Shown here: positions 20,142 to 23,444 of the stretch, piece by piece
Layout: every line of letters begins with the position of its first letter
How positions within the stretch are numbered: position 1 is the first letter of the stretch
Assembly (NCBI GenBank): GCA_000990005.1
Contig: LBPF01000008.1
Span: forward strand, 1 to 33,110
Source: Candidatus Woesebacteria bacterium GW2011_GWB1_33_38
Lineage (GTDB): Bacteria; Patescibacteriota; Microgenomatia; UBA8517
Direction: 5' to 3'
Length of the DNA stretch: 33,110 bases
Program-made: the position numbers and the translations under genes
The notes under the pieces: model-generated
What the model saw: the letters and a program-made list of their open reading frames with translations, nothing else
Databases searched by the model: none
Told to the model about the DNA's origin: nothing

Positions 20142-21821
20142 TTACATCCTTTCTGGGGCTTCTATGCCCAATAGTTTTAGGCCATTTTTAAGAACTTGTC
20201 CTGTTCCCTGTGTTAAAAGTACTCGGAAAGATTCGTTTTCACTTCCAATAATTTTATGCTTTGTATAGAAAGTATTATATTTTGAGGCTAAACTATATAA
20301 ATATTCACATAAAATGTTAGGTGAGTAACTTTTAGCAGCAATTGTGATAATCTCTTGAAATTGGGATAATTTACGAAGAACAGAGAGTTCTTTGCCTGTT
20401 AGTTCTGGTAAGTCTTGCAGGTTCGGAACCCGTAAGCCTTTCGGGTTCCGAACCTTATATGTAGTTTTTTGTATCACACTGTTACATCTTGCAACAGTAT
20501 ATTGTAAATAAGGCCCAGAATTCCCTTCCAAAGAAATTGATTCTTTAAGGTCAAAAGCTATTTCTTGTGCAAGTCCTGTTTTTAAAAATGAATATTTAAC
20601 TGCCCCAACTGCTATTTTTTCTGCTATTTCACTATTAATTTTATAACTTTCTAAGATTTTTTCTTTTGCCTGATCTAATATATCTTCACCTAAAATCACA
20701 TTCCCAGTTCTAGAACTCATTTTTCCCTCTTTAAGTTTTACCCAACCATATGGAATATGTATTTCTCTCCCTTTTGTTTCAGGTAAAATAAATTCCAAAG
20801 CCTTAATAATAACTTTAAAATATTCTGTTTGTTCAGGCCCTACAGTGTGAACTAAAAGATCAGGATCATATTCTGAAAACTGTAATTTAGCCAAACCTAG
20901 ATCTTTCCCCTCGTACGTAGGAACACCTTTTCCAGATATAAATACTCTATCATGAAGCCCATATTTTGATCCTTTGAAAATGACTGCCCCATCACTTTTT
21001 TCTAAAATACCATTTTTTAAAGATTCTAGGGCGATTAGTTTACCACTTTCTGCACACTCGCTCTCAAAATAGAATCTATTAAATTTGGTGTAAACCCTTT
21101 TATAAATTTCGTCAAAATAATCCAAACTCCATTTTCTAGTTTCTTCATAGATTTTGTTAATATCAGAGTCAGATTTATCATAAATTTTTAAATTAATTTC
21201 TCCTACTCTTTTTTTAGCCTCTTCATCTTCTTCATAGGCAGTTGCACCTTTCGCATATACTTTGCCTAGATATTCTGCTCTTTTTTTAATGTCTTTGAGA
21301 TCTTCAAAGCCTTCTATTTCTATTCCATAAATAGCTTTGGCAATATGCAAACCTACATCACCTTGATAATTAGCTCGAATAACTTTAGCCCCTATCGCTT
21401 CATGAAGTCGTGATAAAGTTTCGCCTGTGGTTATATTTCTTAAGTGTCCGATATGAAATGCTTTATGTGTATTAGGATGGGCGAACTCAAACATTATCTT
21501 TTTACCTTTTAAAGAATCACCTTTCCCGTAGTCCTCTTTCCCCTCATCAATCTGTATCAAATTATTAATTAATATATCTTTTTTCAACCAAAAATTGATA
21601 AATTTACCAACAACTTTGGCAGAAAACTGTAAATCTTTACCATTTATTTCATTCGCAATTTTTTGAGGATCCAAATCTTTGTTTCTTAAACAAATATTAC
21701 TGCTATAATCACCAAATTGAGAATCAGAAGCAAAGTCCACTTCAGAATTTTTAATTCCCGTCGCTTTTTCCAAAACCCTAACTATTTGATCTTTGTAATT
21801 TGACATTTTAATCTTATTCAT
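20142..21821 (-). CDS. argS: Arginyl-tRNA synthetase
   Basis: 559 residues. Class I synthetase: HIGH at 123-126 (FHIGHLRN), the DxGLH segment, KMSS at 367-370 (EGKMSSRTGN) and a C-terminal DALR anticodon-binding domain ending LGIEAPERM. Length is typical. A 37-bp palindrome encodes VRNPKGLRVPN at ~457-467, in the variable linker between the catalytic core and DALR domain. It follows NYN and tRNA-binding genes; the T-box leader at 23011-23158 may control the run. Start ATG 21821 or 21806. Confidence 0.95.
   Translation of the reverse strand: MNKIKMSNYKDQIVRVLEKATGIKNSEVDFASDSQFGDYSSNICLRNKDLDPQKIANEINGKDLQFSAKVVGKFINFWLKKDILINNLIQIDEGKEDYGKGDSLKGKKIMFEFAHPNTHKAFHIGHLRNITTGETLSRLHEAIGAKVIRANYQGDVGLHIAKAIYGIEIEGFEDLKDIKKRAEYLGKVYAKGATAYEEDEEAKKRVGEINLKIYDKSDSDINKIYEETRKWSLDYFDEIYKRVYTKFNRFYFESECAESGKLIALESLKNGILEKSDGAVIFKGSKYGLHDRVFISGKGVPTYEGKDLGLAKLQFSEYDPDLLVHTVGPEQTEYFKVIIKALEFILPETKGREIHIPYGWVKLKEGKMSSRTGNVILGEDILDQAKEKILESYKINSEIAEKIAVGAVKYSFLKTGLAQEIAFDLKESISLEGNSGPYLQYTVARCNSVIQKTTYKVRNPKGLRVPNLQDLPELTGKELSVLRKLSQFQEIITIAAKSYSPNILCEYLYSLASKYNTFYTKHKIIGSENESFRVLLTQGTGQVLKNGLKLLGIEAPERM
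20419..20455. repeat. Palindromic element (GGGTTCCGAACCC family) in argS
   Basis: Perfect 14-bp arms (AGGTTCGGAACCCG / CGGGTTCCGAACCT) around the 9-bp loop TAAGCCTTT. Confidence 0.9.
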
Positions 21822-21919: not shown

Positions 21920-22402
21920 TTATTTACCTAATTTTACCCTTTTATCATTCATAAAATCCATGTAGGATTTAAATTTTAATAAAAGTTGAGAGTATTTTTT
22001 CTGATTTGGAATAATAATTTTTTCAAGCTTTTTCTGTTTATCTAAATACTCAACTAAGCAATAAAAATCTCCATCACCTGAAACTATAACGGCCTTTTTG
22101 TAATTCGGATACTCAATCATTGTGTGAAGCACCAATTCTGCATCTACATTGCCTTTTACCTCGTGTTTTGAAACAACTGTGGGTTTAAAAACCAGTTGAT
22201 ATCCTGACTTTTTCAAAGAGTCATACAATTTTTGATTTTTCTCAATGTATCCAATAAATAAAAATGCTTTTCTAATTTTATATTTATCCTTTAGATAAAT
22301 TCTAAACCTTCTAAAATCAAGCTTCCAACCTTGATCACGAATTCCAAGATTTAAATTCTGGGAATCAATAAAAGCATAAACTTTCTGGTTTGTTCTTTGC
22401 AT
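21920..22402 (-). CDS. NYN-domain (LabA/DUF88) putative RNase
   Basis: 160 residues. PIN-like fold: FIDSQNLNLGI (first Asp), KGNVDAELVLHTMIEY (second Asp) and VSGDGDFYCLVEYL (GDxD). The acidic residues predict a metal-dependent RNase, possibly in tRNA or RNA quality control given its place between a tRNA-binding protein and argS. SD GCAGGA lies seven bases before the ATG, overlapping the previous stop. Confidence 0.88.
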   Translation of the reverse strand: MQRTNQKVYAFIDSQNLNLGIRDQGWKLDFRRFRIYLKDKYKIRKAFLFIGYIEKNQKLYDSLKKSGYQLVFKPTVVSKHEVKGNVDAELVLHTMIEYPNYKKAVIVSGDGDFYCLVEYLDKQKKLEKIIIPNQKKYSQLLLKFKSYMDFMNDKRVKLGK

Positions 22403-22405
22403 ATA

Positions 22406-22732
22406 TTATCCTGCTTTTACACCATTTGGAACTTTTTTCTCAGGAATCGCCAAAACTGGAATTATTCCATCTGAGTAACCAATATCAAATGTCATACCCT
22501 CTGATATTTCACCCATCATTTCTTTTGGTTCCAAATTGACAACAAACAAAGCCTGTAACCCTTCAATTTCTTTTGGATTCTCACGTTCTTTCTTAATTCC
22601 AACTAAAATATTCCTCTTAAAATCCCCGAAGTCAACAACAAGCTTAACTAATTTATCTGACTTCTCGATATCAATAACCTTTTCAATCAAACCCACACGA
22701 ATATCAATCTTTTCAAGATCGCTAAATTTAAT
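22406..22732 (-). CDS. tRNA-binding OB-fold protein (MetG C-terminal/EMAPII-like)
   Basis: Conserved start would be IKFSDLEKIDIRVGLIEKVIDIEKSDKL, then VDFGDFKRNILVGI and LEPKEMMGEISEGM: the OB fold that binds tRNA in methionyl-tRNA synthetase and related free-standing chaperones. The frame has no ATG/GTG/TTG before GTG 22696 (inside RVG), which would remove part of the fold. ATT at 22732 or CTG at 22771 (12 nt after AAAGGAG) are candidate starts. The frame is continuous with the upstream ORF except for its TGA stop. Confidence 0.8.
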   Translation of the reverse strand: MKFSDLEKIDIRVGLIEKVIDIEKSDKLVKLVVDFGDFKRNILVGIKKERENPKEIEGLQALFVVNLEPKEMMGEISEGMTFDIGYSDGIIPVLAIPEKKVPNGVKAG

Positions 22733-22777
22733 ATTTGATTTAATTTGTTGCGTATTTCTATTGTATAACAGATTAGT

Positions 22778-23005
22778 TCAAAACTCCTTTCCTTTTTTTG
22801 AACTCCACTTTCTCCAGTCTTTAGGTGCCTGAGGGTGTGTTTCTTTAAAAATTAATGCTTCCAATTCTTTCAGGGTTACATCTTTTACTTTGTCTCCGTC
22901 TAATGTTAGTAAATTTATTTCTCCATCTTGATCCACCAAAACCATCCCCACATCATTAGGTATTGCTAAATTAGCAACCAATTTTTTAATTATACTTATA
23001 TCCAT
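22778..23005 (-). CDS. Hypothetical protein, first gene after the T-box
   Basis: 75 residues from ATG 23005: MDISIIKKLVANLAIPNDVGMVLVDQDGEINLL..., ending HPQAPKDWRKWSSKKGKEF. Alpha/beta start, no match I know. An earlier ATG (23035) lies within the terminator hairpin of the T-box and cannot be the usual start. The strong purine run AAAGGAAAGGAG at its 3' end looks like the SD of the next gene. Confidence 0.7.
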   Translation of the reverse strand: MDISIIKKLVANLAIPNDVGMVLVDQDGEINLLTLDGDKVKDVTLKELEALIFKETHPQAPKDWRKWSSKKGKEF

Positions 23006-23010
23006 ATTTA

Positions 23011-23158
23011 TAAAAACAAAAACCCCTTCAAACATTAAACTTAATTAATATTTAAAGGGGTTCTTCGACATCGCTCAGAACGGTACCACCCTTATTTTTA
23101 ACTCTTTACTCCAAAGCTCTTGGGATTCGAACCCCAATCAAACGCTTTTTCCTTGGTT
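23011..23158 (-). promoter_or_regulatory. Compact T-box riboswitch (tRNA-sensing leader)
   Basis: T-box sequence AAGGGTGGTACCG at 23093-23081. Antiterminator: A93-A92-G91-G90-G89 pair with C59-C58-C57-U56-U55, 7-nt bulge UGGUACC (88-82), second helix GUUCU (81-77) with AGAAC (64-60), positions as 230xx. Terminator: AACCCCUU (62-55) with AAGGGGUU (28-21), then UUUUUGUUUUU. The two are mutually exclusive. Only ~65 nt precede the T-box, folding as CCAAGG/CUUUGG enclosing UUGGG-GUUCGAAU-CCCAA, so stem I is minimal. Specifier unknown. Confidence 0.85.
23060..23081. repeat. REP-like sequence inside the T-box
   Basis: GTTCT, a 12-bp core with CGACATCGC, then AGAAC. This resembles a TTCGACxTCGCTCAG-type repeat common in bacterial genomes, here forming the apical helix of the antiterminator. 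Confidence 0.5.
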
Positions 23159-23167
23159 ATTGTATCA
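23159..23167 (-). promoter_or_regulatory. Extended -10 for the T-box transcript
   Basis: TGATACAAT on the minus strand; transcription should start at about 23152-23155, immediately 5' of the outer stem. Confidence 0.6.
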
Positions 23168-23219: not shown

Positions 23220-23444
23220 ATGCCTAAAGAAGATTACCAAAGGTTAATGGCTGCAGCCGTAGTAAATGCAGATCAAGGTGAACCACTTTTAAGTGGTGTT
23301 CCAAAAAAAATAGAAAAGGTGTTGAGAGGTGGATATATGGGGATAAGTTATCATTTTACAAAAGATGAAATTGATTTTTTAAAAAACGTGGATGCGATAG
23401 ATTTGGCAGATTTTGCTAAACAAACTGCGGGTTATTGGGATTAA
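23220..23444 (+). CDS. Hypothetical small protein
   Basis: 74 residues: helical N-terminus (MPKEDYQRLMAAAVVNADQGE), GVPKKIEKVLRGGYMGISYHF, then FLKNVDAIDLADFAKQTAGYWD. Not recognised; soluble, near neutral. Divergent from the T-box operon with its own extended -10, so probably real and independently expressed. Its stop overlaps the convergent comEC-like gene by 4 bp. Confidence 0.65.
   Translation: MPKEDYQRLMAAAVVNADQGEPLLSGVPKKIEKVLRGGYMGISYHFTKDEIDFLKNVDAIDLADFAKQTAGYWD

Follow-up and report, generated by a model that had tools for sequence, protein, structure and literature searches.

Four classes of T-box riboswitch are recognised (PMC10482949), and two of them are close to the leader considered here. 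In class III, for which the ileS leaders of Nocardia farcinica and M. tuberculosis serve as examples, stem I is short and the specifier is in an apical loop of 5-6 nt, with stem II being required and control mostly translational (PMC10482949). The ileS stem I is K-turned, lacks the elbow-binding double T-loop motif and has a purine after its specifier, and class III stem II brings an S-turn and a IIA/B pseudoknot. Class II, e.g. B. subtilis glyQS, is glycine-specific and acts through a transcription terminator; a single-stranded linker replaces stem II, and the long stem I has an internal specifier loop and the elbow-binding motif. According to reviews, a short stem I hardly binds tRNA unless stem II is there as well, and the elbow-binding motif is a requirement of T-boxes that act on transcription (PMC7583486, PMC10482949); strong pairing between codon and anticodon, GGC being the example, is said to make stem II dispensable. 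A 2008 survey included no CPR genomes (PMC2494555), and a literature search of incomplete coverage found no report of T-boxes in CPR bacteria, so the novelty of what follows is provisional.

The window, i.e. the whole stretch of 33,110 nucleotides that was analysed, makes up a single contig of a genome of 845 kb. Going by names, the nearest relatives of its argS are in Woesebacteria and Roizmanbacteria MAGs, and the uncultured source is probably a Microgenomates (CPR) bacterium. On the minus strand (23148-23012) a leader precedes an operon that encodes argS together with a tRNA-binding and an NYN protein. Very probably this leader, an RNA of about 94 nt, is a stripped-down T-box switch that senses tRNA. 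It has the family's 7-nt UGGN bulge, an exclusive terminator, a cognate specifier and discriminator pairing. With class III it shares the short stem I without elbow-binding motif and the apical specifier followed by a purine, and a putative K-turn in stem I would be a further likeness, but it has no stem II with S-turn and pseudoknot, and its output is a transcription terminator. With class II it shares that terminator and the linker in place of stem II, whereas its stem I of ~36 nt, apical specifier and arginine specificity set it apart from glyQS. The combination is outside the four published classes. The class I label of the preliminary description is not supported, as the long stem I with double T-loop motif and the stem II of that class are both lacking and the specifier is apical.

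Sequence anatomy and exclusive folds

Features of the argS leader and of the operon downstream of it
Feature	Position	Strand	Basis or remark
Putative extended -10 promoter element TGATACAAT	23159..23167	-	read from sequence; weak
Short stem I, AAAGC-GUUU-GA-UUGGG[GUUCGAAU]CCCAA-GA-GCUUU	23113..23148	-	minimum-energy fold, -11.6 kcal/mol, z -2.0
Putative K-turn, 5' side GUUU-GA	23138..23143	-	3' side GA at 23119-23118
Specifier codon CGA (Arg)	23127..23129	-	positions 3-5 of hexaloop UUCGAA
Unpaired linker, 19 nt	23094..23112	-	read directly; unpaired in fold
Antiterminator AAGGG-UGGUACC-GUUCU...AGAAC-CCCUU	23055..23093	-	sequence and fold; A2 paired and covarying in the set of 63 leaders
A1 helix AAGGG/CCCUU, 5 bp	23093-23089 with 23059-23055	-	
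T-box bulge UGGUACC, 7 nt	23088-23082	-	
A2 helix GUUCU/AGAAC, 5 bp	23081-23077 with 23064-23060	-	
Intrinsic terminator and U tract	23012..23065	-	overlaps 3' strands of A2 and A1
First ORF under control, unknown protein of 75 aa	22778..23005	-	ATG at 23005
tRNA-binding OB-domain protein	22406..22765	-	Pfam PF01588, E 2.7e-17
NYN-domain protein, putative nuclease	21920..22402	-	Pfam PF01936, E 2.8e-15
argS, arginyl-tRNA synthetase	20142..21821	-	Pfam PF00750 and PF05746

The near-consensus T-box and the bulge between two 5-bp helices, first described from the letters of the window, are present on the minus strand just as reported then, and the accompanying view that the switch is unusually compact is borne out. 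A divergent ORF starts at 23220, so that a canonical stem I would overlap the promoter and does not fit, and the linker, which occupies the place of stems II, IIA/B and III, is too short for a stem II. (A purine motif in it, AAGAG/AAAGA, is not enriched among leader linkers, being present in 10 of 63 with 8.1 expected.) Upstream of TGATACAAT no clear or consensus -35 element was found, and since the extended -10 element stands by itself, a transcription start near 23152 is a guess. The putative K-turn of stem I is a sequence pattern composed of the helix AAAGC/GCUUU, the loop GUUU and GA/GA.

When the leader is folded up to the end of A1, with the 3' arm of the terminator omitted, the minimum-energy structure consists of the short stem I and the A1/UGGUACC/A2 antiterminator, the stability of this 98-nt truncated leader not being above that of shuffles (z 0.36). 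Once the 3' arm is added, the terminator wins. The strand 23064-23055 is common to both structures, and they are therefore mutually exclusive. Exclusivity and the U tract had been anticipated correctly, but not the length: in place of 8 bp the terminator hairpin has ~21 bp (20 pairs in one listing), at -26.0 kcal/mol and z -8.2. Such strength on its own is what an ordinary constitutive terminator or attenuator, with a T-box likeness due to chance, would display, yet the joint presence of a near-consensus T-box, an exclusive antiterminator, a cognate codon and argS, together with dozens of similar leaders elsewhere, leaves that explanation next to negligible.

The Rfam model RF00230 aligns to the antiterminator region of the window (model positions 156-216), though with 12.2 bits where the gathering score, a curation cut-off and not a biological definition, is 93. 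A search of the whole of its own genome with RF00230 gave no match and no second T-box, and neither did a pattern search there, the one other match looking coding. The helix arm formerly called REP-like is not a repeat in this genome: besides the arm, a one-mismatch pattern retrieved only a single poor match, as against six control matches. Sequences similar to it fill the A2 arm in four other leaders (L004, L040, L041 and L057).

The proposed control of an argS operon is supported; Pfam searches identified the OB, NYN and argS products, while the 75-aa ORF has no match in Pfam or NCBIfam. As a separate matter, that ORF shares its reading frame with the OB ORF, a single TGA lying between them (22778-22700), and no ATG, GTG or TTG precedes the OB domain in the window, where relatives' OB ORFs begin with ATG; an ACG or ATT start, readthrough and an assembly error are candidate explanations.

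Leaders in related genomes

Relatives were sought with a pattern comprising the T-box and the closing A1 strand, all upstream sequence being left unspecified. It matched in 12 of 57 genomes of the order, 58 of 374 of the class and 33 of 380 of the phylum; in the class search a reversed control pattern gave 15 matches, compared with roughly 70 real places. The resulting dataset has 63 leaders with a downstream U run, mostly from this survey with a few others, probable chance matches having been removed by hand (L042, L047, L050, L060 and L061). Comparison was by structural coordinates, as MAFFT misaligned stem I modules of differing length, and downstream genes were assigned by NCBIfam (aspS, glyS, thrS, serS, ileS, argH and aminotransferases). 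For many relatives RF00230 returned E values from 1e-8 to 0.015, and 28.8-50.6 bits, short of the cut-off of 93, for most of those tested.

Across the 63 leaders A2 has at least 3 bp in 79% (5.5% when shuffled) and a mean length of 4.5 bp (0.6 when shuffled), with both sides changing pair types among GC, AT and CG. The terminator helix reaches 7 bp or more in 87%, against 3% of shuffles. Neither feature was selected for, and their enrichment identifies the relatives' leaders as antiterminator/terminator switches. Upstream, a search was made for a stem I built as helix, short loop, GA, helix, loop, helix, GA and helix, and hairpin scores of 18 or more were obtained for 57% of leaders and 7% of shuffles; the window's score, 26.8, is the second highest of the 63. 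Pair types within stem I vary widely at each position, in a table that is biased because the finder itself demands pairing. T-boxes that were picked without regard to it repeatedly have the GA/GA (or AA) bulge on their upstream side. One leader with a good antiterminator, before valS (L038), was searched for a stem I and none was found. Covariation in A2, of the kind that a comparison of related leaders was expected to yield, is present across the set, but not at the window locus itself, for which no orthologous leader was found in another genome: BLAST with the window leader against 50 family genomes returned T-box-sized pieces only, and in the 374 class genomes other CGA-loop stems of the window's form were limited to chance-like matches with unpaired flanks.

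For 27 leaders with strong hairpins and a labelled gene, the window included, the apical loop could be compared with the regulated amino acid, AspRS cases being allowed Asp or Asn and the labels of L044, L054, L166 and L168 resting on an argS further down the same operon. The loop contains the cognate codon in 26 of them, while 20,000 permutations of the labels averaged 8.7 and never exceeded 18. If only hexaloops and only their positions 3-5 are considered, 13 of 17 are cognate (permutation mean 4.6), and each of the four misses is an Arg CGC loop displaced by a single base. The codons found are AAC for Asp/AsnRS and for aspartate aminotransferase, GGC for glyS and glyA, ACC for thrS, AUC for ileS, UCC for serS, CCC for proS, and CGC for argH, argS and argG.

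Specifier, tRNA match and proposed switch

In the window the hexaloop UUCGAA, when read in the register of positions 3-5, gives CGA as the specifier, followed by A, the conserved purine, at 23126. The loop GUUCGAAU had been taken for a copy of the tRNA T-loop, and UUCGAAU does match T-loop sequence, but docking of such a mimic on the tRNA elbow is highly improbable, for in relatives the loop follows whichever amino acid is regulated (AAC, GGC, AUC, UCC, ACC, CGC), which makes it a specifier loop, and it is T-loop-like only where the codon is CGA. Nor is a specifier in the internal loop once proposed to hold it, AAAAAGCGUUUGA, supported, as that loop is the 5' side of the putative K-turn and in relatives this side does not track specificity. 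Several triplets are contained in GUUCGAAU, and recognition of a different tRNA through Ser UCG, Glu GAA or Phe UUC would be conceivable on that ground; it is very unlikely given the hexaloop register, the argS downstream and the genome's own tRNA-Ser, whose G73 would pair only as G-U with UGGU.

The genome's tRNA-Arg anticodons are UCG, UCU, CCU and GCG, and A73 is present in all four genes read. tRNA-Arg(UCG) pairs fully with CGA, two of the three pairs being G-C, and its A73 pairs with the U of UGGU; tRNA-Gly and tRNA-Thr of the same genome have U73. Position 4 of the T-box follows the discriminator among labelled leaders: every Gly (14) and Thr (2) leader has A there, to suit U73, and 11 of 15 Arg leaders have U, to suit A73.

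That the leader is a transcription-terminating T-box riboswitch for uncharged tRNA-Arg(UCG) is a reading that we hold with considerable confidence, and for tRNA binding and its dependence on charging we infer the following course. RNA just past the 5' end would form the short K-turned stem I, with its apical loop presenting CGA. Uncharged tRNA-Arg would bind at two places, the anticodon pairing with CGA and the 3'-terminal ACCA with UGGU of the bulge, and, once bound, would hold the A1/A2 antiterminator so that polymerase reads into the OB-NYN-argS genes. With charged tRNA-Arg, for which no stable bulge pairing is predicted, the 3' strands of A1 and A2 would instead join the 21-bp terminator and transcription would stop. 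By analogy with Gly T-boxes, absence of the elbow contact and of the stem II clamp may be tolerable, perhaps because two of the three codon-anticodon pairs are G-C. If the switch works without either, pairing of codon with anticodon and of ACCA with UGGU is enough during transcription.

A probable shortened family form and its wider setting

argS is present in all 50 family genomes, and Arg-type T-boxes were located 1.8-3.3 kb upstream of it in 5 of the 40 regions fetched (G014, G016, G017, G048 and G049), with orthologues of the OB gene ahead of argS in the T-box operons of G048 and G014, as in the window. These other family T-boxes are long, with stem I, in those where it could be placed, ~170-200 nt ahead of the T-box, and the other Arg T-boxes of the group mostly have a CGC specifier and keep their long upstream domains. 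The window leader looks like a shortened form of the family's Arg regulator. Shortening could amount to decay, stems II and III having been lost from a full Arg T-box with a terminator that now responds poorly to tRNA, and the length of the family's other Arg T-boxes, the restriction of the short Arg form to one genome and the weak tRNA binding predicted from the literature for a leader without stem II (PMC7583486) all agree with this. We nevertheless regard decay as unlikely, since none of the remaining parts is damaged (A1, A2 and stem I are perfect helices of 5 bp, the T-box is consensus, the specifier is cognate and the discriminator matches) and equally short leaders recur with other specificities, namely L005 before aspS, L057 and L058 before glyS, and possibly L115 and L131.

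Microgenomates/Patescibacteria leaders such as L044, L008 and L129 have the same stem I type, antiterminator, terminator and relation to a cognate gene as the leader in the window; most of the leaders found there keep stem II-like and/or stem III-like domains. On balance we favour, though with reserve, a fifth T-box architecture: transcriptional, with a class III-like apical-specifier stem I and neither elbow-binding motif nor stem II, in which a 94-nt RNA is predicted to hold the tRNA only at its anticodon and 3' end, and which would stand at the far end of a set of transcriptional T-boxes with short stem I that runs through the Patescibacteria and scores below the cut-off of the standard covariance model. 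If this is so, a minimal tRNA-sensing switch is defined, with use as a small model for structure and design, and CPR bacteria gain amino-acid control by tRNA that annotation with the standard model has overlooked.

Several other loci came to light along the way. In other Patescibacteria classes (L205-L230), short-stem-I T-boxes with terminators precede ileS-like and aspS-like genes, the loop often being AUC. L083 has the loop UUUCCCG (Pro CCC) before proS and a tRNA-binding OB protein of the same kind as that in the window's argS operon. Two T-boxes are close together before glyA in L080 (1501 and 1682), and L125 has an Arg-type one at 482 followed at 1282 by a near-canonical one that scores 92.6 bits with RF00230. 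Two protein families, '...FWS.VEKSWP...' and '...EHPNWAPWLEAS...'-like, are repeatedly encoded after Arg-type T-boxes (L032/L198, L044, L168; L074, L084, L124, L133); they have no NCBIfam match and are candidates for arginine-linked functions.

A run of at least five T, 8-45 nt upstream of the T-box, is present in 26 of 63 leaders, compared with 1.7 in shuffles. Such runs (e.g. in L006, L044, L054 and L121) usually follow a G+C-rich hairpin situated where stem III would be, and hairpin and run together look like an extra terminator inside the leader; in L006 and L054 an outer helix seems to enclose the internal terminator-like element. In L044, immediately after the terminator and ~92 nt past AGGGTGG on the minus strand, a 38-nt remnant of a tRNA-Arg, GCGCCTG...CAGGCGCAC, with acceptor stem and T-arm but no D or anticodon arm, is situated between the Arg T-box and its operon. 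Attention is also drawn to two T-boxes directly upstream of tRNA genes, one with the Trp specifier UGG before tRNA-Trp(CCA) (L045, 1447-1373, minus strand) and one with the Arg specifier CGC before tRNA-Arg(GCG) (L124, 595-669). No paper on a T-box governing the tRNA that it senses was found in the literature search; judged from their sequences, these two would control the very tRNA that they sense.
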